This document shows positions 12,300 through 63,830 of a stretch of DNA of 64,000 nt, piece after piece (within the stretch, counting starts at the first letter, position 1; each line of letters opens with the position of its first letter). Location of the stretch: positions 310,001 to 374,000 of the forward strand of contig NZ_CP042906.1 in assembly GCF_008728855.1 (NCBI RefSeq), read 5' to 3'. A program made the position numbers and the translations under genes. This DNA is from Hypericibacter terrae. GTDB taxonomy: Bacteria > Pseudomonadota > Alphaproteobacteria > Dongiales > Dongiaceae. The notes below the pieces were generated by a model. That model was not told the origin of the DNA and ran no database searches. It worked only from the letters and a program-made list of their open reading frames with translations.

Positions 12300-13589
12300 A
12301 TGTGCGATACCTTCGTCGCCCTGCCTGACGCCACCGCGAACCGCTCGGTGCTGCTGGCCAAGAGCGCGGATACCGAGATCAACGAAGCGCAGCATCTGCT
12401 GAAGCTGCCGCGCCGCGATTATCCGGAGGGCGCCCAGGTGCGGATCAGCCACCGCGTCATTCCCCAGGCGCGGCACACCTATGAGGCGATTATAGACAAG
12501 TCGTTCTGGCTCTATGGCGGCGAGATCGGCGTCAACGAGCGGGGCGTTGCGGTCGGCAACGAAGCCGTCTTCAGCAAGCTCTCGTCGCAAGGCGACGGCG
12601 TCGTGCTGATCGATCTGCTGCGCCTCATCCTCGAGCGCGCCGCGACCCGTCACGAAGCCGTCGATGTCGTGGCCGACATGCTCAAAACGTTCGGTCAGGG
12701 CGGTAATTGCGAGCTGCGCGGCAACAGCCATTTCGACGGTTCCTTCATCGTGTCGGACAAGGAGGGCGCGATCGTGCTGGAGACGGCCGCCGGCGAGTGG
12801 GCGGCGCGCGAGGTCAAGGGCTTCGGCTCGATTTCCAACGGCTACACCATCGGCAGCGACTGGGACCGCTGCTCCCTCGAGGCCGACAATGGCCGGAAGC
12901 CCGATTTCGGGGCGCTGTTCGACGATGTCGAGCGGACGCGCTGCGTGGCGGCTGCGGAGCGGCAGAAGGCGTCTTACGGCTTCCTCAAGGCCCGTGCCGG
13001 CAAGATCACCGTCCGCACCATGGCGGATCTGCTGCGTTACACCGGCGAAGGCGACTACGAGCCGATGATGGGCGAACGCCCGACCCGCATCTGCATGCAT
13101 GCGGCCCCCTACGAGTACCGGTTCTGGCAGGCGACGGGCGCCCTCATCGCCGACACGCGGGGCGACGACGTCATGGCCTGGGTGACAGCGACCTCCGGCA
13201 CCGACGTCTCGATCTTCAAGCCGGCCTTCTTCGGCGTCGATCTGCCCGACCTGGGGCCGATGCCGCGCGAGTCCTATACGCCTGAGGCCTATTGGTGGAA
13301 GCACGAGTTCCTGCATCGCCGCGCCATGGCCGACTATAAGAGCCTGATGCCGCAGATCCGCGGCGAGTTCGAGGCGATCGAAGACCGGTTCTTCCGGGAC
13401 TCCGAGACCGTGCGCCGCGGCGATGCCCAGGAGAAGGCGGCGTTCGTGACGGCGTGCTGGCGGGAGGCGGACGAGGCCCGCGACCGCTGGATCGCGAAGC
13501 TCGAGGCGCGCAATTACTTCATCCAGAATCCCGCCTACCGCACGATGTGGGATCAGTTCAATCGTGCGGCCTCGCTGCCCCTGTCGTAG
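12300..13589 (+). CDS. C69-family dipeptidase / secernin-like N-terminal-nucleophile hydrolase
   Basis: A 429-residue protein opening MCDTFVALPDAT, the secernin signature. Cys2, exposed when the initiator Met is removed, is the predicted N-terminal nucleophile. The segments LAKSADTE and YGGEIGVNERGVAVGNEAVF also match the C69/secernin class. C69 enzymes hydrolyse dipeptides or amide bonds. There is no signal peptide, so it acts in the cytoplasm. It lies 21 bp after the importer ATPase with its own GGAGAG ribosome-binding site. I infer that it cleaves the imported solute. Confidence 0.85.
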   Translation: MCDTFVALPDATANRSVLLAKSADTEINEAQHLLKLPRRDYPEGAQVRISHRVIPQARHTYEAIIDKSFWLYGGEIGVNERGVAVGNEAVFSKLSSQGDGVVLIDLLRLILERAATRHEAVDVVADMLKTFGQGGNCELRGNSHFDGSFIVSDKEGAIVLETAAGEWAAREVKGFGSISNGYTIGSDWDRCSLEADNGRKPDFGALFDDVERTRCVAAAERQKASYGFLKARAGKITVRTMADLLRYTGEGDYEPMMGERPTRICMHAAPYEYRFWQATGALIADTRGDDVMAWVTATSGTDVSIFKPAFFGVDLPDLGPMPRESYTPEAYWWKHEFLHRRAMADYKSLMPQIRGEFEAIEDRFFRDSETVRRGDAQEKAAFVTACWREADEARDRWIAKLEARNYFIQNPAYRTMWDQFNRAASLPLS

Positions 13590-13625
13590 ACCGCGGATCG
13601 AAGCCCAGGAACCGGATCGCCACCC

Positions 13626-14279
13626 ATGGATCTGACGCCCGCGCAGATCGGCGAGCGCATCAAGACCTTGCGCAAGGAACGGCGCTGGACCCTGCAGGAG
13701 CTGGGCAAGCGGGCCGGCGTCTCGATCTCGGCCCTGTCCAAGGTCGAGAACGCGCAGGTCGCGGCCTCGTTCGACACCCTGCTCAAGATCGCACGGGGCT
13801 TCGAGCTGGGCTTCGAGGCGATGCTGAACGGCGTGTCGCCGCTCCTGCCGGCGGGGCGCCTCACCACGACGCGCGAGGGAACCGGCGTCTTCTTCTCGAC
13901 CGACATGTACGAGTACCAGGTCCACTCGGCCGAGCTGCGCCAGAAGCACATGATCCCGCTCCATATGGAGGTGAAGGCGCGCGAGCTCGCCGACATCAGG
14001 CGGTGGAGCTCGCATGAAGGCGAGGAGTTCATCTATGTGCTGCAGGGCCGGATCGAGCTCCATACCGAGCTCTATGCGCCCATGCCCCTGAAGGCCGGCG
14101 ACAGTGCCTATATCGACAGCAAGATGCCCCATGCCTTTCTCAACCGCGGCAAGGGCAAGGCCTGGATGCTCTCGATCTGCTTCAGCAAGGACATCAAATT
14201 TCCGGGAGAGGAGAAGCCGTCCAGGCGAAAGCCCCCCGCTCGGGAGACCTTCGGGGCGCGCCGCAACAAGAGGCGATAA
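13626..14279 (+). CDS. XRE-family transcriptional regulator with C-terminal cupin domain
   Basis: A 217-residue regulator. Residues ~8-62 are a lambda-repressor-like helix-turn-helix (ERIKTLRKERRWTLQELGKR...ISALSKVE). Residues ~125-195 are a cupin_2 barrel (EGEEFIYVLQGRIELHTE; GDSAYIDSKMPHAF), expected to bind a small ligand. The tail is basic (RRKPPARETFGARRNKRR). Regulators of this type commonly control amino-acid or polyamine catabolism next to their own gene; its position at the end of the importer operon makes self-control of that operon likely. Confidence 0.88.
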   Translation: MDLTPAQIGERIKTLRKERRWTLQELGKRAGVSISALSKVENAQVAASFDTLLKIARGFELGFEAMLNGVSPLLPAGRLTTTREGTGVFFSTDMYEYQVHSAELRQKHMIPLHMEVKARELADIRRWSSHEGEEFIYVLQGRIELHTELYAPMPLKAGDSAYIDSKMPHAFLNRGKGKAWMLSICFSKDIKFPGEEKPSRRKPPARETFGARRNKRR

Positions 14280-22096: not shown

Positions 22097-23410
22097 GTGA
22101 AGATCAGCATTTTCGGACTCGGTTATGTTGGCGCGGTCTCGGTGGGTTGCCTGGCCGCGCGCGGCCATCAGATCGTCGGCGTCGATGTCAATCCGACCAA
22201 GACGGCCTTCATCGCGCGCGGCGAATCCCCGGTGATCGAGGCCAAGATCGGCGATCTGATCGCCAAGGCCGTGCGCGAGGGCCGGCTCACCGGCACGACC
22301 GACGGGCCCGCCGCGGTCGCCGTCACCGACCTCGCCTTCGTCTGCGTCGGCACCCCCAGCCAGCAGAACGGCAATCTCGACCTGACCTATGTCCGCGCGG
22401 TGTGCGAGGAGATCGGCAGCGCCCTCAAGGCGCGCAAGGATTTCTTCGTGGTGGTGATGCGCAGCACCGTGCTGCCGGGCACGACCCGCGACGTGGTGAT
22501 TCCGCTGCTGGAGCGCGCCTCGGGCAAGAAGGCCGGCGTCGATTTCGGCGTCTGCTTCAATCCGGAGTTCCTGCGCGAAGGCACGGCGGTCGACGACTTC
22601 TTCAATCCGCCCAAGACCGTCATCGGCGCCACCGACGAGCGCAGTCGCAAGACCCTCGCCGGTCTCTATGACGGCATCGACGCGCCGATGATCCATACCG
22701 ACATCGAGATCGCCGAGATGGTGAAATATGCCGACAACGCCTGGCATGCGCTCAAGGTCGGCTTCGGCAACGAGATGGGCGCCATCGCCAAGGCGCTCGG
22801 CATCGATGGCCACAAGGTCATGGACATCTTCTGCCAGGATACCAAGCTCAACATCTCGCCCAAATATCTGAAGCCAGGCTTCTCCTTCGGCGGGTCCTGC
22901 CTGCCGAAGGACCTGCGTGCGCTCAACTACCGCGCCCGCCGGCTCGATCTCGAACTGCCGATCCTGACCTCCGTCATCCCCAGCAACGAGCGCCATACCA
23001 GCAGCGGCTTGCGCATGATCGCCGAGCAGGGCCATCGGCGCATCGGGGTGCTGGGCCTGAGCTTCAAGGCTGGCACCGACGATCTGCGCGAGAGTCCGAT
23101 GGTGAACGTGGTCGAGAACCTGATCGGCAAGGGCTACGACGTGCGCATCTTCGATCGCAACGTCAAGCTGGCCGGGCTGATGGGCTCGAACAAGAGCTAT
23201 CTGCTCAACCACATCCCGCATATCTACAACCTGGTGGTGGACAGCATCGACGCCGTCATGGATCACGCCGAGACCGTGGTCATCGGCAACAACGATCCCA
23301 GCCACGACGAGGTCTTCGAGAAGGTCAAGAACGGACAAGTGATCGTCGATTTCGCCCGCATCGGCAATCGCACGTCGGATGGCGGGCAATATCACGGCAT
23401 CTGCTGGTGA
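22097..23410 (+). CDS. algD: GDP-mannose 6-dehydrogenase (AlgD-type)
   Basis: A 437-residue NAD-dependent dehydrogenase oxidising GDP-mannose to GDP-mannuronate in two steps. It has the Rossmann motif GLGYVG (8-12), GTPSQQNG, NPEFLREGTA, catalytic C268 in FGGSCLPKDLRAL, and SFKAGTDDLRESP. Both the length and the C-terminal GICW match Pseudomonas AlgD (436 residues) as I recall it, favouring GDP-mannose over UDP-glucose. The second of two in-frame GTGs is preferred because AGGTGA lies five bases ahead. The product would supply mannuronate or a derived uronic acid for the polymer. Confidence 0.88.
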   Translation: MKISIFGLGYVGAVSVGCLAARGHQIVGVDVNPTKTAFIARGESPVIEAKIGDLIAKAVREGRLTGTTDGPAAVAVTDLAFVCVGTPSQQNGNLDLTYVRAVCEEIGSALKARKDFFVVVMRSTVLPGTTRDVVIPLLERASGKKAGVDFGVCFNPEFLREGTAVDDFFNPPKTVIGATDERSRKTLAGLYDGIDAPMIHTDIEIAEMVKYADNAWHALKVGFGNEMGAIAKALGIDGHKVMDIFCQDTKLNISPKYLKPGFSFGGSCLPKDLRALNYRARRLDLELPILTSVIPSNERHTSSGLRMIAEQGHRRIGVLGLSFKAGTDDLRESPMVNVVENLIGKGYDVRIFDRNVKLAGLMGSNKSYLLNHIPHIYNLVVDSIDAVMDHAETVVIGNNDPSHDEVFEKVKNGQVIVDFARIGNRTSDGGQYHGICW

Positions 23411-50304: not shown

Positions 50305-51852
50305 TCAGGCCAGGTTGGCGACCCGCTCGAGTTCCTTGATGCGCTGATGGACGGAGTCCGGCGTCACCGGCTCGTTGCCCTCGCGGCTGCATTCCACGGC
50401 GGCCGCGATATTGCCGAGGATCGCCGCCAGGACGTCGTTTCCGGTCGCGAAATAGGCCAGCGTCGCATAGGCCAGGAGCGCGTCGCCGGCGCCGACCGGA
50501 TCGACGATCTTGTTCGCGAAGCTGTCGAGCGCCGCCACGGTGCGCAGGTCCTCCGGCGGCCGGGTGCGATAGGTGAGAACGCCGCGGTCGCCGAGCTTGA
50601 GGATCAGCGTCTTGCAATGGGCCTGCTCGAACAGCGCCGTCGCCAGCGGACGGATCGCCGAATCCTGATCGCCCAGCGCGAAACGCGCCTCGCGCTCGTT
50701 CGGCGTGATCAGATCGAAGCCCTTGAATTCGAGGATGTTGCCCCAGCGGCTGGCGACCTGGCTGTCGGCGACGCGCATGCGCCCGGCAGGAATCGCCTCG
50801 GTGAGGCGCGGCACCGTCATGCGGTTGAAGATGCCATGGCGGAAGTCGCTGAAGCAGGTGATGTCCGCCGCGGTCTCGGCGATGTCGCGCCGGAACTCGG
50901 TCAGCACCTTGTCGGAGATCGAGCGATTGTCGACGGTGTCGATCTTCAGCAGGCGGTAATCGTGGGCGACGATGGCGTTCTTGTTGGTCGTCGGGCGCGT
51001 CGAATCGATGATGGCGCGCGTCTTGACGCCCGCCTTCTCCAGATCCTGCAGGACGAAATCCTTCAGCGCGTCGTTGCCGAGAACGGTCGAGAAGGTCACG
51101 TCCGCGCCGGCCGCGCGCAGATGCTTGGCGACGATGCCGGCGCCGCCGACATAGTCCACCTTGTTCTCATAGAGCACGCTCATGGTCGGCGTCTTGGTCA
51201 TCCCGCCGATCATGCTGCAATGGGTCAGGCTGTCGACGATGGTGTCGCCCACCACATGGACCCGGATGCCCTTGAGATTGTCCAGGGCGCTATAGAGCTC
51301 CGAGAAGCCGAAGCCTTCGCCTTCCATCATCATCATCAGCTTCTCGATGCCGATATCTGGCGGTCCGGACTCGATCAGGCGCGAGGATGAATAGACGATA
51401 TCGCCCGGCGTGAAGAGCACCTCGCCGCCGAAGCTCTCGAGCGTGCGCATCTCTTCCTGGGTCTTCGGATTGTGGCCGCCGGCATATTCGTAGCCCTTGG
51501 CATAGAAATCCGGCTGGATCAGCTTCAGATTCTCGACCGGCGTCGGGTTGGGATCGACGACGACATAGTCGACGGCCTCGAGCGCCGCCAGGTTGATCGC
51601 CCGCAGATCCTGGGGCACGAAGGGCCGATGGGCCGCCTTCAGGATGTGGGCGTCGGCGGTGATGCTGGCGACGAGGATGTCCGATTTGCTCTTGGCGTAG
51701 AGCAGATGGCGGACATGGCCCGGATGCACGACATCGAAGGTGCCGTGGCACATGATGACCCGTTTCTTGCGCGGGCGGGGGCCGATGATGGCCGCAACTT
51801 CCTGCGCCGTCTTGATCTTGTGGCTCACCAGCTTGCGGCTTTGTGGATCCAT
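50305..51852 (-). CDS. Nucleotidyltransferase-PfkB kinase fusion (HldE-like, reversed domain order)
   Basis: A 515-residue bifunctional protein. Residues ~30-165 are a cytidylyltransferase-fold domain with GTFDVVHPGHVRHL (HxGH at 43-46) and the late VYSSSRL motif. Residues ~190-505 are a PfkB sugar kinase with GGAGIVAKHL, TPNEREARF and DPVGAGD (catalytic Asp 457). E. coli HldE has the same two activities but with the kinase first. Together they would phosphorylate C1 of a heptose-7-phosphate and, after GmhB action, attach a nucleotide. It is the last gene of the six-gene operon, starting 3 bp after the epimerase stop. Confidence 0.85.
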   Translation of the reverse strand: MDPQSRKLVSHKIKTAQEVAAIIGPRPRKKRVIMCHGTFDVVHPGHVRHLLYAKSKSDILVASITADAHILKAAHRPFVPQDLRAINLAALEAVDYVVVDPNPTPVENLKLIQPDFYAKGYEYAGGHNPKTQEEMRTLESFGGEVLFTPGDIVYSSSRLIESGPPDIGIEKLMMMMEGEGFGFSELYSALDNLKGIRVHVVGDTIVDSLTHCSMIGGMTKTPTMSVLYENKVDYVGGAGIVAKHLRAAGADVTFSTVLGNDALKDFVLQDLEKAGVKTRAIIDSTRPTTNKNAIVAHDYRLLKIDTVDNRSISDKVLTEFRRDIAETAADITCFSDFRHGIFNRMTVPRLTEAIPAGRMRVADSQVASRWGNILEFKGFDLITPNEREARFALGDQDSAIRPLATALFEQAHCKTLILKLGDRGVLTYRTRPPEDLRTVAALDSFANKIVDPVGAGDALLAYATLAYFATGNDVLAAILGNIAAAVECSREGNEPVTPDSVHQRIKELERVANLA

Positions 51853-51855
51853 GGC

Positions 51856-52869
51856 TTATGCGTTCTCCCGGCCGGCCTGCTTCATGAATTTGAACCAGGT
51901 TTCCGTGGCGCTGGCGATCGACTGGGGGTCCCAGAGCGGCGCTTCGCGCCAATAGTCGATGGTGGCCACGATCCTGGCCACGCCTTCCTCGAAACTGACC
52001 GCCGGCGCCCAGCTCAGCTCGCGCTGGATCTTGCCGATGTCGGCCCAGGTCACGTCCGGCTCGCCCGGGCGCTTCGGGATGTAGGTCTTTTCCCCGCCCA
52101 GGAGCTCGATCAGGCGGTTGACCGATTGCGGATTGCCGCCGCCCAGATTCCAGAAGGTCCCCACACGGTCGGTCTCCGCCGCGGCGAGAAAGGCGCGGGC
52201 GACGTCCGTGACATAGAGGAAGTCGCGGCGCTGCGTGCCGTCGCCGACGACGGTGAAGGGCTTGCCGGCCAGCTTCTGGCGTAGGAACACGCCGAACACC
52301 GCGCCATAGGCACCCGAGGTGCGCGAACGCGTGCCATAGGCATTGAAGATGCGGACCGAATTCACCGGCAGGCCATAGACCTTGTGCCAATGGAAGCCGG
52401 CCTGTTCGCCCTGATATTTCGACAGGGCATAGGGATAGAGCGGGTTGATCGGATGATCCTCGCGCGTCGGCGTCGCTGCCAGGCCGTAGCAGGAGGAGGA
52501 CGCCGCATAGACGAACTTGGTCACGCCCGCCTGGCGGGCCGCCTCGAGCACCGCGACCGTGCCCTGGACGTTCGCCGACATGTATTCCGCCGGCCGTTCG
52601 ATCGACGGGACGATGTCGCCGATGCCGGCGAAATGGAAGACGAAGCGCGCGCCGCGGAAGGACGGATCCTCCGGCTTGATGTCGCGGATGTCGCGGGTCT
52701 CCAGCACCACGTCGCCGGAACCGGCATGCTGGGCCAGATTGGCGGCGCGGCCACCGACCATATTGTCGATCGCGTGAACGCGGAAGCCGCGCTCGACCAG
52801 CAGATCCACCATATGGCTGCCGATGAAGCCCGCCCCGCCGGTGACGACGGCCAGAGGCTTCCTGGTCAT
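51856..52869 (-). CDS. NAD-dependent sugar-nucleotide epimerase/dehydratase (extended SDR)
   Basis: A 337-residue extended SDR. NAD motif TGGAGFIGSHMVD (9-21), catalytic serine region YAASSSCYG and Y-x3-K in YPYALSKYQGE are all intact. The PRTRTSGAYGAVFGVFLRQ-like substrate loop resembles UDP-sugar 4-epimerases. Its ATG overlaps the preceding gene's stop by 4 bp (ATGA). In this operon it may epimerise the activated heptose or make another NDP-sugar. Confidence 0.85.
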   Translation of the reverse strand: MTRKPLAVVTGGAGFIGSHMVDLLVERGFRVHAIDNMVGGRAANLAQHAGSGDVVLETRDIRDIKPEDPSFRGARFVFHFAGIGDIVPSIERPAEYMSANVQGTVAVLEAARQAGVTKFVYAASSSCYGLAATPTREDHPINPLYPYALSKYQGEQAGFHWHKVYGLPVNSVRIFNAYGTRSRTSGAYGAVFGVFLRQKLAGKPFTVVGDGTQRRDFLYVTDVARAFLAAAETDRVGTFWNLGGGNPQSVNRLIELLGGEKTYIPKRPGEPDVTWADIGKIQRELSWAPAVSFEEGVARIVATIDYWREAPLWDPQSIASATETWFKFMKQAGRENA

Positions 52870-53873
52870 GCGGCGCGCAGGGACTTCAGCTGACGGACGT
52901 TGAAGTACCGATCGTCGGTCATGCTGTTGGGCAGCTTGTTCGCCTTGAAGGCCTTGCACAGGTCGCGAACCGCGTCCTCCACGGTGTGGCGCGGCGAGAA
53001 GCCCAGCAGGCGGCGGATCTTGTCCGAGTTGATGTGATAGCTGCGGATGTCGTCGGTGGGCGTGGTGACGATGTCGATGGCGCCCCGGTCCGGGAATTCC
53101 TTCATGACCACGTCGCGGACGGTGCGCGCGATGTCCATGATGCTCATGTTCTGATAGCCGGCATTGAAGGTCTCGCCGGCGATCTTCTCGTCGGGCAGCT
53201 CCAGCAGCAGCTCATAGAGGTCGCACATGTCCTGCACATGCAGGTTGGGCCGGAGCTGCGTGCCGCCGAACACGGTGATCTTGCCGTTGTTGATGGCGTG
53301 GTTCGTCAGGATGTTGACGCTGAGATCCAGGCGCTGGCGCGGCGCGTAGCCGCAGACGGTCGCGGGCCGGATCGTGACGCAGACGAAGTCGGGCGACTGA
53401 TGCTTGAACAGCAGCGGCTCGCACATGCCCTTGTACTTGTTGTAGAGCGTCAGCGGCAGCAGAGGATGGTCCTCGGTGACGTTCGGCTTGTCGGAGACGC
53501 CATAGACCGAGCTCGAGCTGGCATAGATGAAGCGCTTCACGCCCGCGCGCTTGGCCGCGATCACCATGGGCTCGAAGGCGTCCAGGTTGACCGAGGTCGA
53601 AAGCCGTTCGTCCAGCTCGAAGCTCGCATCGTTGGAGATGCAGGCGAGCGAAATCACGACATCCTGGCCCTGGCAGGCCTTGGCCAGCTTCGCCGTGTCG
53701 CGGATATCGCCCTCGATGATGCGCAGGGCCGGATCCTGCTTCGGCAGGAAGTCGTCGCCGAAATACATGATGTCGTAGACGGTGACGTGATAGCCGAGAT
53801 CCAGCAGCTGCGGGACGAGCAGCGATCCGACATAGCCGGCGCCGCCGGTCACCAGGACATTCTTGAACTTCAC
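52866..53873 (-). CDS. NAD-dependent sugar-nucleotide epimerase/dehydratase (extended SDR)
   Basis: A 335-residue extended SDR with NAD motif TGGAGYVGSLL, serine region YASSSSVYG and Y-x3-K in YNKYKG. The C-terminal half (NLHVQDMCDLYELLLE; FNAGYQNMSI) is typical of NDP-sugar epimerases. It begins at a GTG that overlaps the transaldolase stop (GTGA), so a much longer upstream open frame is a shadow. Substrate unknown; it differs strongly from the next epimerase. Confidence 0.85.
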   Translation of the reverse strand: MKFKNVLVTGGAGYVGSLLVPQLLDLGYHVTVYDIMYFGDDFLPKQDPALRIIEGDIRDTAKLAKACQGQDVVISLACISNDASFELDERLSTSVNLDAFEPMVIAAKRAGVKRFIYASSSSVYGVSDKPNVTEDHPLLPLTLYNKYKGMCEPLLFKHQSPDFVCVTIRPATVCGYAPRQRLDLSVNILTNHAINNGKITVFGGTQLRPNLHVQDMCDLYELLLELPDEKIAGETFNAGYQNMSIMDIARTVRDVVMKEFPDRGAIDIVTTPTDDIRSYHINSDKIRRLLGFSPRHTVEDAVRDLCKAFKANKLPNSMTDDRYFNVRQLKSLRAA

Positions 53874-54661
53874 GAACGAGCTCCATTCGCCAGGACCGGC
53901 GCGGCGTCCCGCGTCGGGATGTTGTAGCCGGCGGCATCGGCGTCCCGCCAGAACATCTCCACGGTCTCGAGCGAGAAGCGCTCGAGATCCTTGCCCACCG
54001 AGCCCAGCTTGTTCAGCAGGTCGTTGGTGACGGTGATGATGTGGCAGCCGCAGGCGTCGGCATGAAACAGGTTGAGCACCTCGCGCGGGCTCGCCCACAG
54101 CACTTCCGCCTTGGGATGGGCCTTCGCCGCGAGCCGGACCGCTTCGGTCATGATCGGCATCGGGTCGCGCCCGCTGTCGGCGACGCGGCCGGCGAAGATC
54201 GAGAGGATCGCCGGCGTGTCAGCCGACAGGACATCCAGCGTGGCGCGCACCTGGTCCAGCGTGAACATCGCCGTCACGTTGACGGCGACGCCGCGCTTCG
54301 ACAGGCGGCCGACCAGCGGCACCGAGGACTGGCGCTTGGTGTTGGTGATGGGGATCTTCACATTGACGTTGGCGCCCCAGGAAGCGATCTCCATGGCCTG
54401 CGCTTCCATCGTCGCGTGATCGTCGGCGAAGACCTCGAAGGAGATCGGCCGGTCGGGCACCGCCGCGATCGCCTCGCGCGCGAAGGCGCGATAGTCCTTC
54501 ACGCCGGCCTTGCGCATCAGCGTGGGATTCGTGGTGAACCCCTTGATGAAGGGCTTGGCGTACATTTCGCGAATGCCGTTGAGGTCGGCGCCGTCGGCGA
54601 AAATCTTGATCCGCAGATCGGAGATCGAGGGCACGGGTTCCATCGGTCGTGAGACCTTCAT
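53870..54661 (-). CDS. Transaldolase (TalC/fructose-6-phosphate aldolase-like)
   Basis: A 263-residue TIM-barrel aldolase. The Schiff-base lysine is in NVNVKIPITN, and GFTTNPTLMRKAG, NVTAMFTLDQ and SIFAGRVADSGRDP are conserved transaldolase segments. Transaldolases exchange dihydroxyacetone units and can form sedoheptulose-7-phosphate, the starting substrate of the heptose pathway. Its ATG directly abuts the GmhB stop (TAGATG). Finding it inside a heptose operon suggests a dedicated supply of precursor. Confidence 0.87.
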   Translation of the reverse strand: MKVSRPMEPVPSISDLRIKIFADGADLNGIREMYAKPFIKGFTTNPTLMRKAGVKDYRAFAREAIAAVPDRPISFEVFADDHATMEAQAMEIASWGANVNVKIPITNTKRQSSVPLVGRLSKRGVAVNVTAMFTLDQVRATLDVLSADTPAILSIFAGRVADSGRDPMPIMTEAVRLAAKAHPKAEVLWASPREVLNLFHADACGCHIITVTNDLLNKLGSVGKDLERFSLETVEMFWRDADAAGYNIPTRDAAPVLANGARS

Positions 54662-55198
54662 CTAGAATTGTTGGAGAATGACGTCCGCCGCTTCCGCGAG
54701 CGAGCACACGATTCGATCGGGTCGTTCCCGCGGGACGTCATAGTCGTTGCGCAACCATATGGTGTGGCAGCCGGCGGCTTTTCCGGCCCCGATGTCGCGC
54801 CAACGATCCCCGACCATGAAGCTCTGGTCCAATCGGATATTGTGTCGCGCGGCTGCGTCAAAGAGCATGCCGGGCAGCGGCTTATAGCACTTGCAGTCAG
54901 GCCCCTCAAGGCACCAGCAGACCTCGACATGGTCGATCGGCAGCCGGTCCGTCAGCCAGCGGTTCATCGCCTCGACCGTCGCCCGGGAGGTCAGGCCCTT
55001 GGCCGCATCCGGCTGGTTGGTCGCGATGGCCAGGAACAAGCCTGCGGCTTTCAGTCGCTGGAGCGCGTCGACCGCGCCCGGCATGAGAATCATGTCCGCC
55101 ACGCCGGCCGGCGGGTAGGGGTGTCCGTCCCGGATCACCGCCTCGTTGAGCGTGCCGTCGCGGTCGAAGAACACCGCCCGGCGCGGTGCCGCGGCCAT
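54662..55198 (-). CDS. gmhB: D-glycero-heptose-1,7-bisphosphate 7-phosphatase (GmhB-like HAD-IIIA)
   Basis: A 178-residue HAD phosphatase. The nucleophile and acid are D12 and D14 in FFDRDGTLN; ATNQ carries the motif II threonine; the lysine is in CYKPLPGM and the last acidic motif is MVGDRWRDI. The GmhB zinc loop is present but compact: C94-x-C96 and C102-x-C104, with a Cys replacing the usual His and only five residues between the pairs. It removes the C7 phosphate of heptose-1,7-bisphosphate. The ATG overlaps the SIS gene stop, ruling out a longer upstream frame. Confidence 0.87.
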   Translation of the reverse strand: MAAAPRRAVFFDRDGTLNEAVIRDGHPYPPAGVADMILMPGAVDALQRLKAAGLFLAIATNQPDAAKGLTSRATVEAMNRWLTDRLPIDHVEVCWCLEGPDCKCYKPLPGMLFDAAARHNIRLDQSFMVGDRWRDIGAGKAAGCHTIWLRNDYDVPRERPDRIVCSLAEAADVILQQF

Positions 55199-55815
55199 CA
55201 CCGAGGGGCTGCGCTCGTGGCGGTCACACTCTCCCATTTCGTCGCCCGGCGCTGCAGGACCGGGTTGGAGACGAGGCAGTGCCACACCACGGCCTGGAAG
55301 CCTTCGCTCTGCGGCGTGATGTGCGCCGCGTTCGGCGCCGGAATCACGACCACCACGTCGCCCTTCTTGGCGGTGTAGCCGGTCGCACGCCCGACGATCC
55401 CGAAGACTTTCGTGCCGCGCCGCTTGGCCAGATCGATCGCTTTGACGAGATTGGGCGAGACGTTCTTCTCGGCGTCGCCGCCGCCGACCGAGAAGATCAG
55501 GATCGCATCCTTCTCGTTGATATTGCTGACCTCGAGCCAGCCCTCGAACACCGTGTCCCAGCCTTCGTCGTTGGTGCGTGCCGTCAGCTCCGAGACATTG
55601 TCGACCGGGGTATAGGCTTCGATCCCGCAGAGCTTGCGGAAGTCGTTGACCGCATGGCTGCAATTGCCGGCGCTGCCGCCGACGCCGAGCAGGAACAGGC
55701 GGCCGCGCCGCTCGCGCACCGCCGCCAGCTCCGAAGCCAGTCGATCGATCGCGGCACGATCGATCTCGCGCGCGATCTGCGCGACTTCGTCGAAGAACAA
55801 AGCTGCGTGGCTCAT
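55198..55815 (-). CDS. SIS-domain sugar-phosphate isomerase (GmhA-like)
   Basis: A 205-residue SIS-fold protein with LLGVGGSAGNCSHAVNDF (phosphosugar site), ELTARTNDEGWDTVF and FSVGGGDAEKNVSPNL. GmhA converts sedoheptulose-7-phosphate to D-glycero-D-manno-heptose-7-phosphate. The second SIS loop is longer than in E. coli GmhA and the zinc histidines are not all recognisable, so this is a divergent member; the operon context supports the heptose role. The start at MSHAALFF is chosen for its GGAAGGCGGG ribosome-binding site. It is the promoter-proximal gene of the six-gene operon. Confidence 0.8.
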   Translation of the reverse strand: MSHAALFFDEVAQIAREIDRAAIDRLASELAAVRERRGRLFLLGVGGSAGNCSHAVNDFRKLCGIEAYTPVDNVSELTARTNDEGWDTVFEGWLEVSNINEKDAILIFSVGGGDAEKNVSPNLVKAIDLAKRRGTKVFGIVGRATGYTAKKGDVVVVIPAPNAAHITPQSEGFQAVVWHCLVSNPVLQRRATKWESVTATSAAPR

Positions 55816-56109: not shown

Positions 56110-57033
56110 ATGCGTGTCGCCGTTGTCGGACTCGGTGTCCAGGGCCATAAGAGGCGAAGCGTCGCGGGGGCGGACCTGGCCGCCACCGTCGACCCGGTCA
56201 ACCCCGAGGCCGACTACCGCCGCATCGAGGAGGCGCCGATCTCGAGTTATGACGCGGCCCTGATCTGCACGCCGGACGAGCCCAAGCTCGCCATCCTCGA
56301 TTACCTGGCCTCCCACCGGAAGCATGCGCTGGTCGAGAAGCCCTTGATCGCGGACGACGATGCTGCCATTGCCGGCCTTCGGGATCGGGCGCGGGCAAAG
56401 GGGGCGGTGCTCTACACCGCCTATAACCATCGCTTCGAGCCGCATTTCATCCGGATGCGCGAGCTGCTGCAAAGCGGCCGGCTCGGCCGGATCTATCGCT
56501 TGCGCATGTTCTACGGCAACGGAACGGCGCGCCTGGTGCATGACTCGGCCTGGCGCGATGCCGGTGCCGGCGTGCTCCCCGATCTGGGATCGCATCTGCT
56601 CGACACCATCCTGTTCTGGCTGGGATCGCCCCCCGCGGCACCGTTTCGCGTCGTGTCCGCGGACCGATTCGAGAATCGGGCGTTCGATCATGTCGTGCTC
56701 GCCTCGGCCGGGCCGCCCTCGATCGAGCTGGAGATGACGCTCTGTTCCTGGCGCAACGATTTCAAATGCGACCTGCTGGCCGAGAACGGCAGCGCGCACA
56801 TCGAATCGCTGTGCAAATGGGGCCCGACCCACTTCACCGTTCGCGACCGCAAGCTCCCCAGCGGTCGGCCAGACGAGTCGTCGAAAACGCTGATCCAGCC
56901 CGATCCGACCTGGGTCGCGGAGTACGCGCATTTCAAGTCGCTCTGCGAATCGGGCGGCCCCGACAATCTCGACAACGATCTCTGGATCAACCGCAGCTTG
57001 CGGAAGCTCGCCGCCGAGGCCCTGGCGTCATGA
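56110..57033 (+). CDS. Gfo/Idh/MocA-family NAD(P)-dependent sugar oxidoreductase
   Basis: A 307-residue oxidoreductase. The Rossmann motif is VVGLGVQGHK (5-14), the catalytic EKP motif is VEKPL and the substrate-side histidine is in LPDLGSHLLDT. The family oxidises or reduces sugars or NDP-sugars at C3 or C2. The frame is open upstream, but the ATG chosen abuts the Rossmann strand. Its stop overlaps the next start (ATGA), coupling it to the dehydrogenase-like gene. Confidence 0.85.
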   Translation: MRVAVVGLGVQGHKRRSVAGADLAATVDPVNPEADYRRIEEAPISSYDAALICTPDEPKLAILDYLASHRKHALVEKPLIADDDAAIAGLRDRARAKGAVLYTAYNHRFEPHFIRMRELLQSGRLGRIYRLRMFYGNGTARLVHDSAWRDAGAGVLPDLGSHLLDTILFWLGSPPAAPFRVVSADRFENRAFDHVVLASAGPPSIELEMTLCSWRNDFKCDLLAENGSAHIESLCKWGPTHFTVRDRKLPSGRPDESSKTLIQPDPTWVAEYAHFKSLCESGGPDNLDNDLWINRSLRKLAAEALAS

Positions 57034-58277
57034 TCGGCTTTGCGGGCATGACGCATCTGGGCATCGTCTCGAGCCTCGCGGCGGCGGCCAAGGGTGTGTC
57101 GACGGTCGCCTTCGATCCGAGCGCGGAACTCGTCGCGCAGCTGAGTCAGGGACGGTTCCCGATCGACGAACCCCGGCTCGCCGAGATCTGGACGGCCCAT
57201 CGGGGGAACATCCGCTTCACCAGCCAGGCGTCCGACCTCTCCGCCTGCGACCCGATCTATGTCGCGCCGGATGTTCCCACCGGCGATAGCGGCGAGAGCG
57301 ATCTCGAGCCCGTCCATCGGCTGCTCGATATCGTCGGCAAGGCCGCGGCCGGAAGGACGCGGGTCCTGCTGAGCCAGGTGCCGCCGGGCTTCACCCGGGC
57401 GCTGCGAGACGAGAGCCTCTATTATCAGGTCGAAACCCTGGTGTTCGGCCGCGCCTTCGAGCGTGCGCTCGAGCCGGAGCGCTACATCGTCGGCTGCGCC
57501 GACCCGGCCCGCCCCCTGCCGCCGGCCTTTCGGGCCTATCTCGAGCGGTTCGGCTGTCCCATCCTGCCGATGCGCTATGAGAGCGCGGAGCTCGCGAAGA
57601 TCGCCATCAATTGCTGCCTCGCGGCGAGCGTCACGGTCGCCAACTCGCTGGCCGAGCTGGCCGAGGGCGTGGGCGCCGACTGGTCGGAGATCGTTCCCAC
57701 CCTGCGGCTCGATCGCCGCATCGGCCCGCATTCCTATCTGACGCCGGGCCTTGGCCTCTCCGGCGGCAATATCGAGCGCGACCTCTCGACCGTGACCCGG
57801 CTCGCCGACGCCGCCGGCGCCGATGCGAGTGCCATCCGCGCGATGCTCGTCAACAGCCGCCACTGCAAGGATTGGCCCTTGCGCCGGTTCGGCGAGCTGG
57901 TGGCGGACCGGGTCAAGCATCCGCGCGTCGCGCTCTGGGGCCTCGCCTACAAGGAGAACACCCATTCGACCAAGAACTCGCCGGCCCTGGCCTTCTTGAG
58001 CGGGCTCGGCCCCTCGGTCGTGCAAGCCTTCGATCCACTGGTCGCCGCCGAGGCCCGCTATCATCCCGGCATCGTCCAGGCCAAGGATCCGCTCGATGCC
58101 TGCCGCGGCGCCGACGCGCTGGCGATCCTGACGCCCTGGCCGCAGTTCAGGAGCGTCGCGCCCGGCGACGTCGCCACCGCCATGAAGGGGCGCGTCCTGT
58201 TGGACCCCTATCGCATCCTCGATCCCCAGGCCTGCCGCGCGGCCGGCCTTCAGCAAGCCGTCCTTGGAGCTCCGTGA
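57030..58277 (+). CDS. UDP-glucose/GDP-mannose dehydrogenase-family protein lacking the catalytic cysteine
   Basis: A 415-residue homologue of NDP-sugar 6-dehydrogenases. The dinucleotide motif is GFAGMTHLG, two residues longer than GLGYVG. The active-site Lys and Asn are present (ELAKIAIN: K190, N194). At the place of the thiohemiacetal-forming Cys (GGSCxPKD in AlgD upstream), it reads LSGGNIERD with N247 (codon AAT, 57768-57770). Oxidation to the acid by the usual mechanism therefore looks impossible; a one-step alcohol dehydrogenase or epimerase role is an inference. GTGA overlap with the next gene. Confidence 0.8.
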   Translation: MIGFAGMTHLGIVSSLAAAAKGVSTVAFDPSAELVAQLSQGRFPIDEPRLAEIWTAHRGNIRFTSQASDLSACDPIYVAPDVPTGDSGESDLEPVHRLLDIVGKAAAGRTRVLLSQVPPGFTRALRDESLYYQVETLVFGRAFERALEPERYIVGCADPARPLPPAFRAYLERFGCPILPMRYESAELAKIAINCCLAASVTVANSLAELAEGVGADWSEIVPTLRLDRRIGPHSYLTPGLGLSGGNIERDLSTVTRLADAAGADASAIRAMLVNSRHCKDWPLRRFGELVADRVKHPRVALWGLAYKENTHSTKNSPALAFLSGLGPSVVQAFDPLVAAEARYHPGIVQAKDPLDACRGADALAILTPWPQFRSVAPGDVATAMKGRVLLDPYRILDPQACRAAGLQQAVLGAP

Positions 58278-59170
58278 CGCCCGTGACCTTCGATCATCGA
58301 CAGACTCCTCCCGCCGAACCCGCCCGTGTCGTGGTGCTGGGCTCGCGCGGTTTCATCGGCGCGGCCCTCGTCCGCGATCTCGCGGCCGGCGGCGTCCCGA
58401 CCCTGGCGCTCTCCTCGGCCGATCTCGACCTGGCGATGCCCGATGCGGCCGCGAAACTGACCGCCCTGCTGCAGCCCGAGGATGCACTGGTGTTCCTGTC
58501 GGCCGTGACGCCGGACAAGGGCCGCGACATCGCCAGCACCATGCGCAATCTGCGGATGGGCGAGGCGGTGGCAGCGGCGCTGCAAGCGCGGCCGGTTGCC
58601 CATCTGGTCTATCTCAGCTCGGATGCGGTCTATTCCTTCGAGGCCGGCCTCGTCTCCGAAGCCACGCCGGCCGCGCCCATCGACCTCTACGGCGTCATGC
58701 ACCGCACCCGCGAGCTCATGCTGCAGCAGGCGTTCAAGGGGCCGCTGGCGATCTTGCGCTCGACCCTCGTCTATGGCGCGGCGGATACGCACAATTCCTA
58801 CGGCGCCAACCGCTTCCGGCGCCTGGCCGAGAAGGATCGCAAGATCACTCTGGGCGGCAAGGGCGAGGAGACCCGCGATCATCTGCTGATCGACGATGCC
58901 GTCGCCATGATCCGGGAGGTGCTCCGGCATCGCAGCCACGGCATCCTGAACATGGTCACCGGGCAGTCGGTCACGTTCGACGAGCTGGCGCGGCTGGTGG
59001 GAGGGCTTTTCAGTCCGGCAGCGGAGGTGATCCATACGCCGCGGCAGTCGCCGGTCACCCACCGGCATTTCGATCCGGCGCTGCGCCGGCGCGCCTTTCC
59101 CGAGTTCCGCTTCACGCCACTGATCGACGGCCTGCGCAAGGTCCATCGCGAGGCGCAGTCGGGCGCGTGA
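58274..59170 (+). CDS. Extended SDR, sugar-nucleotide reductase/epimerase-like, atypical active site
   Basis: A 298-residue SDR. The nucleotide motif LGSRGFIGAAL (22-32) and YLSSDAVYS are family-like. The catalytic pair reads Y139-G-V-M-H143 (tac at 58688, cac at 58700) where Y-x3-K is expected, so the catalytic lysine is replaced by histidine. The C-terminal part (NMVTGQSVTFDELARLVGG) resembles RmlD/GalE-type domains. The start is a GTG overlapping the preceding stop with GGAG ahead. It may use the same substrate as the unusual dehydrogenase-like protein before it. Confidence 0.78.
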   Translation: MTPVTFDHRQTPPAEPARVVVLGSRGFIGAALVRDLAAGGVPTLALSSADLDLAMPDAAAKLTALLQPEDALVFLSAVTPDKGRDIASTMRNLRMGEAVAAALQARPVAHLVYLSSDAVYSFEAGLVSEATPAAPIDLYGVMHRTRELMLQQAFKGPLAILRSTLVYGAADTHNSYGANRFRRLAEKDRKITLGGKGEETRDHLLIDDAVAMIREVLRHRSHGILNMVTGQSVTFDELARLVGGLFSPAAEVIHTPRQSPVTHRHFDPALRRRAFPEFRFTPLIDGLRKVHREAQSGA

Positions 59171-59236: not shown

Positions 59237-59710
59237 ATGACGGAGAGCGACGCCTCACGCCCGCCGGCCGGCCCGCGCCTGCATCCGCGCGATGCGGTCG
59301 CCGCGATCATCGTCGTGCCGCCGCAGGGATATCTGCTGCAGCTCCGCGACAATCGCCCGGATATCTTCTTCCCCGATCATTGGGGCCTCTTCGGCGGCGC
59401 CATCGAGCCCGGCGAGAGCGAGGAGGCTGCGCTGCGCCGCGAACTTCTGGAGGAGATCGGGGTCGATTTCCCACCCGAGGCGGTGCGCTACGCCACGCGC
59501 ATCGACATCGACTGGAACCGGCCGGGATTCGGGATGAAGACGCGCGCGTTCTTCGAGGTCTCCCTGGCGGCGGAGAGGGTTCGCTCCGTGGTTTTGCGGG
59601 AAGGCGCGGACCTTCGCGTCTTCTCGCCCGCCGAGATCCAGAACCTCCGCGTTACGCCCTATGACGCCTTCGGCCTCTGGCTGCATATCAACCGGGAGCG
59701 CATCGGATAG
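59237..59710 (+). CDS. NUDIX hydrolase
   Basis: A 157-residue protein with a complete Nudix box: GGAIEPGESEEAALRRELLEEIGV (G-x5-E-x7-RE-x2-EE-x-G). Preceding WGLFGG and NRPGFGMKTRAFFEVSL fit GDP-mannose mannosyl hydrolase-like or ADP-sugar hydrolase-like members. It may turn over an NDP-sugar made by the adjacent enzymes. It follows the SDR by 66 bp with AGAGGGAA as ribosome-binding site. Confidence 0.87.
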   Translation: MTESDASRPPAGPRLHPRDAVAAIIVVPPQGYLLQLRDNRPDIFFPDHWGLFGGAIEPGESEEAALRRELLEEIGVDFPPEAVRYATRIDIDWNRPGFGMKTRAFFEVSLAAERVRSVVLREGADLRVFSPAEIQNLRVTPYDAFGLWLHINRERIG

Positions 59711-59834: not shown

Positions 59835-60740
59835 ATGATGGGGGGGCCGGTGCTTCTGAAATCGCGCCAGGTTTCTGTGATTTCCGATCCAATGGCGCTG
59901 AGGCTGCGTATGGGCACATTGCTGGCCCGGTCGCGCTCGATGTTTCATTTGGCGCCGAGTCAGCCCCGCCGGATCTTCTTCATGCATATCCCCAAGACCG
60001 GCGGGATGACGGCGCAGCAATATCTGACCTGCTGTCTCGGCGGAAAACGGGGCGGGCGGCGGTGCAAGCTGGGTGAGATCTATCTTCATCAATCTCCCGA
60101 TGAGCGGAAGATCGAACGGGCGCGGGCATCGCGCTTCATTTGCGGCCATTTTTCCTGGGCCAGCGTCGAGCGCATCGGCATTCGCGACGACGACTACATC
60201 TTCACCTTTCTTCGCGAGCCGCGGAGCCGCCTGCAGTCCTTCTATCGGGTGATGACGAACTACCCCAAGGATCACCTGACCGAAGCGGTGATGAGCCGGG
60301 TGGAGCGATGCCGGGACATGTCCCAACTGGACATGTTCACCACGTCGGATCTCGATCTCCGGAACATGATCGACAACTACATGGTGCGCCAGCTCTCGGG
60401 CCGGCTGGTCGACTATCCGTTTCGGGAATCGGAATGGCCGGCCCTTCTCGAGATCGCCAAGCGCAATCTCCGGCGCCTGAATCGCGTCGGCTTGCAGGAA
60501 ACATACGAGGCCGATTTCGGACGGGTTCTGTGCGACTTGGACCTGCCGCGCCTGCCGGTCATCCCCAGAGACAATGCGACGGACGACGTCGTCAAACGGG
60601 CCTGGGTCAAGGGCAAGACCTACCAGGAAAACCCCGCCGATATCCAGGCGGCCATGGCGCCGCTGGTCCGCTGGGACGACGCGCTCTACGACTATGCCCG
60701 TGAGCTCCGCGCGAGCGGAGCGTTCGGACCCGTCGCCTAG
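59835..60740 (+). CDS. Sulfotransferase family 2 protein
   Basis: A 301-residue protein with the PAPS 5'-phosphosulfate loop HIPKTGGMT (51-59) and the 3'-phosphate motif FTFLREPRSRLQSFYRV. It is related to, but clearly distinct from, the sulfotransferase gene in the exopolysaccharide block. The immediate upstream region is AT-rich (about 59810-59835) and there is no good ribosome-binding site at the first ATG; ATG 59892 is an alternative. Base composition suggests a separate acquisition. Confidence 0.8.
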   Translation: MMGGPVLLKSRQVSVISDPMALRLRMGTLLARSRSMFHLAPSQPRRIFFMHIPKTGGMTAQQYLTCCLGGKRGGRRCKLGEIYLHQSPDERKIERARASRFICGHFSWASVERIGIRDDDYIFTFLREPRSRLQSFYRVMTNYPKDHLTEAVMSRVERCRDMSQLDMFTTSDLDLRNMIDNYMVRQLSGRLVDYPFRESEWPALLEIAKRNLRRLNRVGLQETYEADFGRVLCDLDLPRLPVIPRDNATDDVVKRAWVKGKTYQENPADIQAAMAPLVRWDDALYDYARELRASGAFGPVA

Positions 60741-60794: not shown

Positions 60795-61451
60795 CTACTC
60801 CACGATCGTCCAGTAATAGTCGCCCGTATAGCCGGCCTCGGCGAACACCTTGCGCCAGCCATCCGGATAATCGTGGAAATTCGCGGTCAGAACCCAGTCG
60901 AGGAAGAGCTGGCGCTGTTCTTCGTCGCGATAGGAATCGACCTGCACATAGGCCCGGCCGCCGCAGAGCCGCTGCACTTCCTTGAGCGAGCGGATCACGC
61001 CTTCGCGGTTCTGGTTATGAATCGTGTTGATCGACACCACCGCGCTGAAGCTGTTGCTGGGGAAGGGCAGATGCTCGCAGCTGCCGAGATGGAGCCGACC
61101 GACCACCTCGGGCTCGCAATGCATGACCGCGTATTCCGAGATGTCGATGCCGAACACCTCGAGCCCGGGGCAGACCTTCATCAGGTCCTTGACCAGGAAT
61201 CCCTTGGCGCAGCCGACATCCAGCACCCGATCGCCGGCCTTGAGGCCGAAATGGGCAACGATGTCCTCGGCGATCGGGACCCACCGCCCGTCATAGCGAT
61301 AGCCGCCATAGCCATATTCCCGCGGGCCGTCGAAATATTCCTGGCCGAATTTCCGGGAGGTGGCGATCACCTCCGGGCTCTTGGCCTCCGCGCGGGCGTT
61401 CACATTGCGCCGCGAGCGCGGCAGGCGCGCGAGAAGATTGACCTCAGCCAT
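60795..61451 (-). CDS. Class I SAM-dependent methyltransferase
   Basis: A 218-residue protein. SAM motif I is VLDVGCAKGFLVKDL, with FGIDISEYAV as the acidic loop and FSAVVSINTIHN as motif IV. The C-terminal half (QVDSYRDEEQRQLFLDWVLTANF) resembles methyltransferases of antibiotic and sugar pathways. It diverges from the aminotransferase gene. The acceptor is not predictable. Confidence 0.83.
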   Translation of the reverse strand: MAEVNLLARLPRSRRNVNARAEAKSPEVIATSRKFGQEYFDGPREYGYGGYRYDGRWVPIAEDIVAHFGLKAGDRVLDVGCAKGFLVKDLMKVCPGLEVFGIDISEYAVMHCEPEVVGRLHLGSCEHLPFPSNSFSAVVSINTIHNQNREGVIRSLKEVQRLCGGRAYVQVDSYRDEEQRQLFLDWVLTANFHDYPDGWRKVFAEAGYTGDYYWTIVE

Positions 61452-61665: not shown

Positions 61666-62793
61666 ATGCCATCCCCATCGACGCCTCGCTCCGTCCGCTA
61701 TTCGCCGCTCGGCCAGCAATTCGCCGATCCCGAACCGATCCTTGCCGACATCCGCCGCCTGGTCGCGTCGGGAGATTTCACGCTGGGAAAGGTGGTCGGC
61801 GAGTTCGAGGCGATGTTCGCCGCCATGCTGGGAACCAGGCACGCCATTGGCGTCGGCTCCGGCACCGATGCCCTCAAGGTCTCGCTCAAGGCGGCGGGGC
61901 TGGAGCCCGGCGACGAGGTTATCACCGCCGCCAACACCTTCTGGGCGACGGTGGGCGCCATCGCGGAGCTGGGCGCCCGTCCGGTCTTCGTCGATTGCGA
62001 CGACATGTTCGGCCTCGACATCGACCGGCTCGAAGCCGCCATCGGCCCTCGCACCAGGGCCATCGTCCCGGTGCAGCTGACCGGCGATGTGGTCGACATG
62101 CCGCGGATCATGGAGATCGCGCGCGCCCACAAGCTGCCGGTCATCGAGGATGCCTGCCAGAGCCTGCTGGGCGAGTGGGAGGGTCGCAAGGCCGGGACCT
62201 TCGGGCTGGCCGGCGCCTTCTCGATGCACCCGCTCAAGATCATCAATGTCTGGGGCGATGCCGGCGTCGTCGTGACCGACGACGACGCGATCGACCGGCG
62301 CTGCCGGCTCTTGCGCAATCACGGGCTGCGCAATCGCAACGAGATGGAGATCCTGGGCTACAACACGCGCCTGGACTCGCTCCAGGCCGTGGTGGGCAAG
62401 CATATGCTGCCTCAGGTCCCGGGCTGGGTCGAAGGGCGCGCGGCCGCGGCCGCCTATTACGACCGCGCGTTCGCCGACATTCCCCAGCTCCGGATTCCAC
62501 ACCGCGATCCGCGCAGCAAGAACGTCTATCTGCTCTATGTGCTGTTCGCCGAGCACCGGGACGAGCTGCATGCGCATTGCGTGGCCGAGGGCATCGAGGC
62601 CAAGGTGCATTACCCGATCCCGGTCTATCGCCAGCAGGCCCTCCGCTATCTCGGCCATAAGGAAGGCGATTTCCCGGTGGCCGATCGCCATGCGCGGGAA
62701 GTGATCACTTTCCCGGTCGATCAGTATCTCAGCCATGCGGAGCAGGACCGGGTTGTCGATGTGGTCCGTTCGTTCTATCAAAAGCGCCGCTGA
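61666..62793 (+). CDS. DegT/DnrJ/EryC1/StrS-family sugar aminotransferase
   Basis: A 375-residue PLP enzyme. The PLP lysine is in FSMHPLKIINVWGD. GSGTDALKVSLKAAGLEPGDEV, DACQSLLGEWEGRKAG and LGYNTRLDSLQA are the family's cofactor and substrate segments. It transfers an amino group from glutamate to a keto-sugar nucleotide. The frame is open 36 residues upstream, but the ATG chosen begins the conserved fold. The downstream 4,6-dehydratase-like SDR could supply its keto-sugar. Confidence 0.88.
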   Translation: MPSPSTPRSVRYSPLGQQFADPEPILADIRRLVASGDFTLGKVVGEFEAMFAAMLGTRHAIGVGSGTDALKVSLKAAGLEPGDEVITAANTFWATVGAIAELGARPVFVDCDDMFGLDIDRLEAAIGPRTRAIVPVQLTGDVVDMPRIMEIARAHKLPVIEDACQSLLGEWEGRKAGTFGLAGAFSMHPLKIINVWGDAGVVVTDDDAIDRRCRLLRNHGLRNRNEMEILGYNTRLDSLQAVVGKHMLPQVPGWVEGRAAAAAYYDRAFADIPQLRIPHRDPRSKNVYLLYVLFAEHRDELHAHCVAEGIEAKVHYPIPVYRQQALRYLGHKEGDFPVADRHAREVITFPVDQYLSHAEQDRVVDVVRSFYQKRR

Positions 62794-62843: not shown

Positions 62844-63830
62844 ATGAGGACCTATATTCTCTTGGGCGGCGGTGGCGTGTTCGCGGTCCATTTCGCGAAA
62901 TATCTGCTCGAGAAGACCGACCCCCGGAAGGTGATCTGCGTCGGCCGCAATCCGCCGGCAGCCCCTCCCTTCACGCTCGAAGTCGGCAAGGGCGATGCGC
63001 GCTATCGCTACGAGCAGATCCATGTCGTGTTCGAGCAGGACCGGCTGTTCGAGCTGTTCGACCGCGAGAAGCCCGAGGTGATCGTCAATTTCGCAGCACT
63101 CGCCTACGCCACCTCCTGGGAGAAGTCGTTCCGCTATTACGAGACCAATGTCGTCGCCCTGGCGAAGATGTGCGAGGATCTCATGAAGCGCGACTATCTC
63201 GAGCGCTTCGTTCAGATCGGAACCTCGGAGCTGTACGGCCCGGTCGAGAAGCCGGCGGCCGAGGATGCGCCGCTGCACCCGACCAGCCCCTATGCCGTCT
63301 CGAAGCTGGCGGGCGACATGCATCTCGACACGCTGTGGGCGGTCCGCAAGTTCCCGATGAACATCATCCGCCCGTCCAACGCCTATGGGCCGGGCCAGCT
63401 GCTCTATCGCATCCTGCCGCGCGCGGTCTATTGCGCGCTGACCGGCCAGAAGCTGCCCCTGCAGGGCGGCGGTAACGTCAAGAAATCCTACATGCATGCC
63501 CAGGACCTGGCGCATGCGATCTGGCTGATGACGGAGAAGGCGCCGTTCGGCCGCCTCTACAATGTCGGGCCCGAGCAGCCCTCGAGCATCCGCCATCTGG
63601 TCGAGCTGGTGGCGGAAGAAACCGGCGTTCCGTTCGAGACGCTGGTCGACATCACCCCCGGCCGCGTCGGCGAGGACGCGCAATACTGGCTCGACAGCAC
63701 CCGGATCAAGACCGAGCTGGGCTATCAGGAGCGCATCAGCTTGCGCGAAGGCGTCCGCGACATGGTCGCGTGGGGCCGCCACTATCTCAAGCAGCTGCCG
63801 CCGCCCGCCGAGTTTGTCCTGCGCGCCTGA
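62844..63830 (+). CDS. NDP-sugar 4,6-dehydratase-like extended SDR
   Basis: A 328-residue extended SDR. Y-x3-K is in SPYAVSKLAGD and GTSELYG corresponds to the Ser/Thr-Asp/Glu dehydratase motif (compare STDEVYG in RmlB, STSELYG in GDP-mannose dehydratase). The nucleotide loop is LLGGGGVFAVHF, departing from GxxGxxG. RPSNAYGPGQ and KKSYMHAQDLAHAI are typical. It would make a 4-keto-6-deoxy sugar nucleotide for the preceding aminotransferase, 50 bp upstream. Confidence 0.83.
   Translation: MRTYILLGGGGVFAVHFAKYLLEKTDPRKVICVGRNPPAAPPFTLEVGKGDARYRYEQIHVVFEQDRLFELFDREKPEVIVNFAALAYATSWEKSFRYYETNVVALAKMCEDLMKRDYLERFVQIGTSELYGPVEKPAAEDAPLHPTSPYAVSKLAGDMHLDTLWAVRKFPMNIIRPSNAYGPGQLLYRILPRAVYCALTGQKLPLQGGGNVKKSYMHAQDLAHAIWLMTEKAPFGRLYNVGPEQPSSIRHLVELVAEETGVPFETLVDITPGRVGEDAQYWLDSTRIKTELGYQERISLREGVRDMVAWGRHYLKQLPPPAEFVLRA

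Follow-up and report, generated by a model that had tools for sequence, protein, structure and literature searches.

Do two neighboring sugar-nucleotide enzymes that lack their classical catalytic residues mark a locus in decay, or a changed reaction? The question is raised by a stretch of the Hypericibacter terrae genome (64,000 nucleotides, hereafter the window), in which the gene for a homologue of UDP-glucose/GDP-mannose 6-dehydrogenases (UGDHs; 57030..58277, forward strand, ATG start, TGA stop, 415 amino acids) is followed by the gene for an extended SDR (58274..59170, forward strand, GTG start, TGA stop, 298 amino acids). A gene for a Gfo/Idh/MocA oxidoreductase lies upstream (56110..57033, forward strand). 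The Gfo and UGDH genes overlap by four bases (ATGA), and so do the UGDH and SDR genes (GTGA). The initial annotation, which favored a changed reaction over decay, had described intact frames, start/stop overlaps and upstream coupling to the Gfo gene, and all of these are borne out.

Two replaced active sites

Canonical UGDHs oxidize C6 twice: a cysteine traps the aldehyde as a thiohemiacetal, which becomes a thioester and is hydrolyzed, and Lys, Asn and Asp are used in hydride transfer. The UGDH-like protein of the window shares with these enzymes the fold, the three UGDH Pfam domains, Lys190, Asn194 and Asp251, and it also retains Lys308. It differs from them in having Asn247 instead of the catalytic Cys (codon at 57768, within PGLGLSGGNIERDL, where canonical proteins read PGPGFGGSCFPKD) and Gln116 instead of an active-site Thr, and in being only about 30% identical to them. 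Its AlphaFold model (pLDDT 93) has the UGDH fold, with a TM-score of 0.91 against 2y0e, and its TIGR03026 (NCBIfam) score of 171.6 bits falls below the cut-off of 189.8. In the SDR, the motif LYGVMH corresponds to Tyr139-Gly-Val-Met-His143 (His codon at 58700). Both replacements, and the Lys and Asn kept next to the first, had been read correctly at the outset. Also correct was the statement that the genome has both UGDH forms: the Cys is retained by an AlgD-type gene in the window (GGSCLPKD, near 22892) and by the genome's two other UGDH paralogues.

When 385 Alphaproteobacteria were searched with the whole protein, a close homologue turned up in 28 genomes, that of H. terrae included; outside the genus, these homologues are 41-58% identical to the protein of the window, well separated from the ordinary UGDHs at about 30%. 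A phylum-wide sample added three homologue-bearing genomes from outside Alphaproteobacteria. The best matches in plasmid records are only about 30% identical. Asn247 is present in all 31 homologues from the whole-genome searches, and His143 in each of the aligned SDRs. From a scan of a genome collection, which yielded 275 related stretches, 80 loci were retained; this set is biased towards Asn because one of the two scan patterns includes Asn, a bias from which the whole-genome searches are free. When both approaches are pooled, 113/113 homologues have Asn247 and 98/98 covered SDRs have His143; the two residues are thus conserved jointly, as the initial annotation had suspected. His9, Gln116, Glu135, Lys190, Asn194, Arg230, Arg250, Asp251 and Lys308 are likewise invariant in the Asn-type family, and Cys is kept in 53/53 other UGDHs compared. 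Homologues of the same clade with Cys and Lys at the two sites were sought and not found. In one locus (L122), a second, partial Asn-type UGDH (13424-13966; 48% identity over residues 234-415, GGNLERD) lies downstream of the first, about 2 kb away.

Comparison with the same-genus orthologues gives Ka/Ks values of 0.098/0.604 for ugd, 0.088/0.454 for sdr and 0.088/0.727 for gfo (ratios of about 0.12-0.19), and the three genes are thus under purifying selection. Decay has nothing but the replaced catalytic residues to speak for it; with the substitutions fixed in 113 and 98 homologues, open frames and low Ka/Ks, it is hardly credible, and we reject it. The conservation and the low Ka/Ks instead support a changed reaction: what look like two active-site losses probably represent a fixed, old change of function in a much-studied sugar-nucleotide enzyme fold.

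A recurrent cassette of heptose-like enzymes

The Gfo-UGDH-SDR trio is part of a larger cassette, which in the window spans about 50.3 to 61.5 kb and forms two divergent halves around 55.8-56.1 kb; a consensus promoter or terminator was sought between these halves and not found. The first half lies on the reverse strand and encodes a GmhA-like SIS sugar-phosphate isomerase (55198..55815), a GmhB-like HAD phosphatase with an intact DxD (54662..55198), an FSA-type transaldolase with its Schiff-base Lys (53870..54661; TIGR02134 above cut-off), two extended SDR epimerases/dehydratases with YxxxK, epiB (52866..53873) and epiA (51856..52869), and an HldE-like fusion of an N-terminal nucleotidyltransferase with a C-terminal PfkB kinase (50305..51852). 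Beyond the trio lies the cassette methyltransferase (60795..61451, reverse strand; Pfam Methyltransf_11). Catalytic motifs were checked in the transaldolase, kinase, phosphatase, nucleotidyltransferase and epimerases and are intact.

Over the 80 loci, the recurrent order is gmhA-gmhB-tal-epiB-epiA-hldE-gfo-ugd-sdr-methyltransferase. Recurrence of the three-gene order, which had been put forward as a check, is evident from gfo upstream of the UGDH gene in 76/80 loci and sdr in 76/80; hldE is present in 74, epiA in 69, the methyltransferase in 68, epiB in 66, tal in 56, gmhB in 49 and gmhA in 46, counts that have to be read with the many cut contigs in mind. Optional neighbors are a NUDIX protein (59237..59710, forward strand; 18/80 loci), a DegT-type aminotransferase (61666..62793, forward strand; 20/80) and an NDP-sugar 4,6-dehydratase-like SDR (62844..63830, forward strand; 23/80). 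Between the NUDIX and methyltransferase genes, an open reading frame at 59835-60740 looks sulfotransferase-like by eye; it occurs in only 1/80 related loci.

The cassette, carried for example by Azospirillum, Bradyrhizobium and Polynucleobacter, is found in at least eight phyla (Pseudomonadota, Acidobacteriota, Nitrospirota, Omnitrophota, Bacteroidota, Planctomycetota, Bipolaricaulota and Thermodesulfobacteriota), with the proviso that many hosts are metagenome bins whose individual placements may be wrong. A 1 Mb bin labeled Actinomycetota (G756; L095/L144) has a proteobacterial-looking cassette, and the bins of L100, L102 and L108 are labeled Bordetella parapertussis; misbinning or misnaming is likely in these cases.

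The first half of the cassette draws on the enzyme families of the ADP-heptose (GmhA-HldE-GmhB) pathway. It departs from that pathway in that its GmhA-, GmhB- and HldE-like enzymes all score below the equivalog cut-offs, in the domain order of the nucleotidyltransferase-kinase fusion, which is the reverse of that in the HldE of the heptose pathway, and in having a dedicated transaldolase. A separate gmhA and hldE lie at 2.39 Mb in the H. terrae genome, where the HldE kinase passes the equivalog cut-off, and the genome also has two further transaldolases; the cassette is therefore a second, dedicated set. As to a link with bradyrhizose, the published gdh primers (PMC4743980) match none of the cassettes compared, the best pair having at least 15 mismatches, a result that counts neither for nor against such a link.

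Relation to the lincosamide pathway

The lincomycin octose is made by the LmbR transaldolase, the LmbN isomerase, the LmbP kinase, the LmbK phosphatase and the LmbO nucleotidyltransferase, followed in the published inventory by the LmbM epimerase, the LmbL dehydrogenase and the LmbZ oxidoreductase (PMC4351081, PMC12945683). LmbL, like CcbL in celesticetin biosynthesis, is a UGDH homologue. A review assigns the conversion of GDP-octose to GDP-lincosamide to LmbM, LmbL, CcbZ and CcbS together. By function class, the inventory of the cassette matches these enzymes. A literature search for a natural Cys-free UGDH or for the cassette found nothing; a 2020 PNAS study, which lay outside the scope of that search, is said to describe LmbL as the 6,8-dehydratase of the lincosamide pathway.

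For comparison, 344 genomes of the genus of G885, taken to be Streptomyces, were searched. With the family profile, no Asn-type UGDH was found among the best 30 matches, all of which are ordinary Cys enzymes; LmbL-type UGDHs were reached only via transaldolase genes adjoining an aminotransferase gene, not via profile rank. An FSA-type transaldolase stands beside a DegT aminotransferase in 5/344 genomes (L202-L206), and four of the five have the lmb order (phosphatase-UGDH-epimerase-isomerase-Gfo, then aminotransferase and transaldolase), with a GHMP kinase and a nucleotidyltransferase in between in the one cluster examined by Pfam. We call these clusters lincosamide-type, and their UGDHs LmbL-type, on the basis of gene order rather than accession. 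Of the four lincosamide-type clusters in which the UGDH is in range, L203 stands clearly apart from the other three, and its product may be a different one.

The UGDHs of the four lmb-order clusters are Cys-free as well, with Thr at the Cys site where the cassette protein has Asn, and share His9, Gln116 and Arg250-Asp251 with the Asn family. Both lineages have thus lost the Cys, changed the nearby Thr to Gln and kept Lys, Asn and Asp. A tree of 58 sequences places the four LmbL-type proteins with the Asn family in a single clade (support 100/99), apart from the Cys-bearing UGDHs; after removal of the motif columns and the longest rows, this split is still supported at 92. With moderate confidence, then, the two appear to be one lineage; both branches are long, and attraction may contribute in part to their grouping.

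This kinship bears on the idea that the UGDH and the SDR are dead enzymes, kept as scaffolds or regulators of other enzymes. The classical catalytic residues are indeed absent from both proteins, but the remaining active-site residues do not vary across several phyla, and a UGDH homologue that has likewise lost its Cys reportedly acts in its own pathway, which makes the idea very improbable.

Transaldolase, GmhA-like, GmhB-like, Gfo and epimerase genes are neighbors of the UGDH gene in both systems. The lincosamide pathway differs in that its LmbO and LmbP counterparts come from families other than that of the HldE-like fusion, in having an aminotransferase (LmbS) in its core, and in lacking a His-SDR. 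There is no aminotransferase in the core of the cassette, the DegT gene near it in the window being one of the optional neighbors. In trees of Gfo and GmhA, no firm sister relation to the LmbZ and LmbN types was found, the profile scores being merely better than those of paralogues, and the transaldolase tree is not specific and does not firmly join the cassette to the lincosamide pathway.

A model for the pathway

On balance, and judging from sequence, we lean slightly towards the view that the UGDH-like protein is an active, Cys-free enzyme of UGDH fold in a dedicated NDP-octose (or NDP-heptose) pathway, where it would be a putative C6-ketone former. A dedicated long-chain-sugar pathway is suggested by the invariance of Asn247 and the hydride-transfer residues, the recurrence of the cassette, the separate canonical heptose genes and the match with the published octose inventory, as well as by the Cys loss and residues that the lmb-order UGDHs share, their common clade and the purifying selection. 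Loss of Cys with Lys, Asn and Asp kept is what one would expect of an enzyme acting on a heptose or an octose, whose C6 carries a secondary alcohol: the product is then a ketone, and a second oxidation is impossible. We infer the substrate, product, carbon number, oxidized position, order of steps and His-SDR reaction.

In the proposed scheme, the transaldolase and the GmhA-like isomerase would provide an aldose phosphate, which the kinase, the GmhB-like phosphatase and the nucleotidyltransferase would turn into an NDP-sugar. The UGDH homologue would then oxidize a secondary alcohol of the side chain, most likely the one at C6, to a ketone, with hydride passing to NAD and possibly with coupled dehydration. 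As a ketone is unable to enter the thiohemiacetal and thioester steps of a 6-dehydrogenase, Cys would not be needed. The keto sugar would subsequently undergo epimerization, reduction or elimination by Gfo, epiA, epiB and the His-SDR, and it may be capped by the methyltransferase.

The initial annotation had offered one-step oxidation to an aldehyde or a ketone. The context favors the ketone, on a long-chain NDP-sugar, over the aldehyde, and the hexose substrates named at that stage (UDP-Glc, UDP-GlcNAc and GDP-Man) are probably wrong. If an NDP-hexose were oxidized at its primary C6 alcohol to the 6-aldehyde, for the SDR or Gfo to transform, the retained fold, Lys, Asn and Asp would fit, and Cys loss alone would halt the reaction at the aldehyde. 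However, this leaves the co-traveling transaldolase, GmhA-, GmhB- and HldE-like genes unexplained, and we regard it as improbable. A stronger competitor, if still a rather unlikely one, is a pathway in which the GmhA-, GmhB- and HldE-like enzymes make an NDP-heptose, the transaldolase merely supplies sedoheptulose 7-phosphate, and the UGDH homologue oxidizes the C6 alcohol of the heptose. The nearest named families are heptose enzymes, which fits, but sedoheptulose 7-phosphate needs no dedicated transaldolase, the pathway closest in UGDH lineage yields an octose, and the cassette enzymes are far below the heptose cut-offs.

Against the slightly favored view of an NDP-octose (or NDP-heptose) pathway stand the possible attraction between the long UGDH branches, the other trees that do not firmly join the two pathways, the different families of the LmbO and LmbP counterparts and the aminotransferase-free core. 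In a bolder reading, to which we give somewhat less than an even chance, many Gram-negative and other phyla would share an NDP-octose pathway for surface glycans that has not been described so far and is akin to the lincosamide pathway. Its Cys-free UGDH would form a ketone, as an oxidoreductase or as a dehydratase, and its His-x3-His SDR would use a novel set of catalytic residues. The favored view would link a widespread, uncharacterized cassette to an antibiotic octose pathway, and if it is right, many bacteria should have a rare C8 or C7 sugar in their surface polysaccharides. Automatic annotation would otherwise label the Asn-type proteins as UDP-glucose 6-dehydrogenases and so point to uronic acids as products, which they probably are not.

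The SDR as a non-obligate partner

The SDR resembles extended SDR NDP-sugar epimerases and dehydratases (TunA, MoeE5, GalE-like) in its fold and glycine-rich NAD motif; its confident model (pLDDT 93) is an extended SDR closest to MoeE5, TunA and 4-epimerases. Those enzymes have YxxxK, whereas the pair is absent from the cassette SDR family, in which 75 sequences have His and 23 have Tyr at position 139. Met in place of the catalytic Tyr of an SDR has been reported (PMC2279256); His for Lys, and mostly for Tyr as well, is unusual. The change is not shared with the lincosamide pathway, as LmbM-type epimerases keep YxxxK. As a guess, the His may act as an acid or base on the keto sugar.

The initial annotation had suggested coordinated retention of the two enzymes. 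This holds for the joint conservation of Asn247 and His143, but the His-SDR is missing from some cassettes (L086, L089) and is thus a non-obligate partner of the Asn-type UGDH. In the divergent cassette L165 (G949, Actinomycetota), which has a 41% identical UGDH with GGNLERD kept and adjoins what appear to be the two subunits of a TPP-dependent dehydrogenase, a YxxxK SDR replaces it. In three Betaproteobacteria loci (L065, L079, L107), one His-SDR paralogue lies on each side of the UGDH gene, and all copies have His143.
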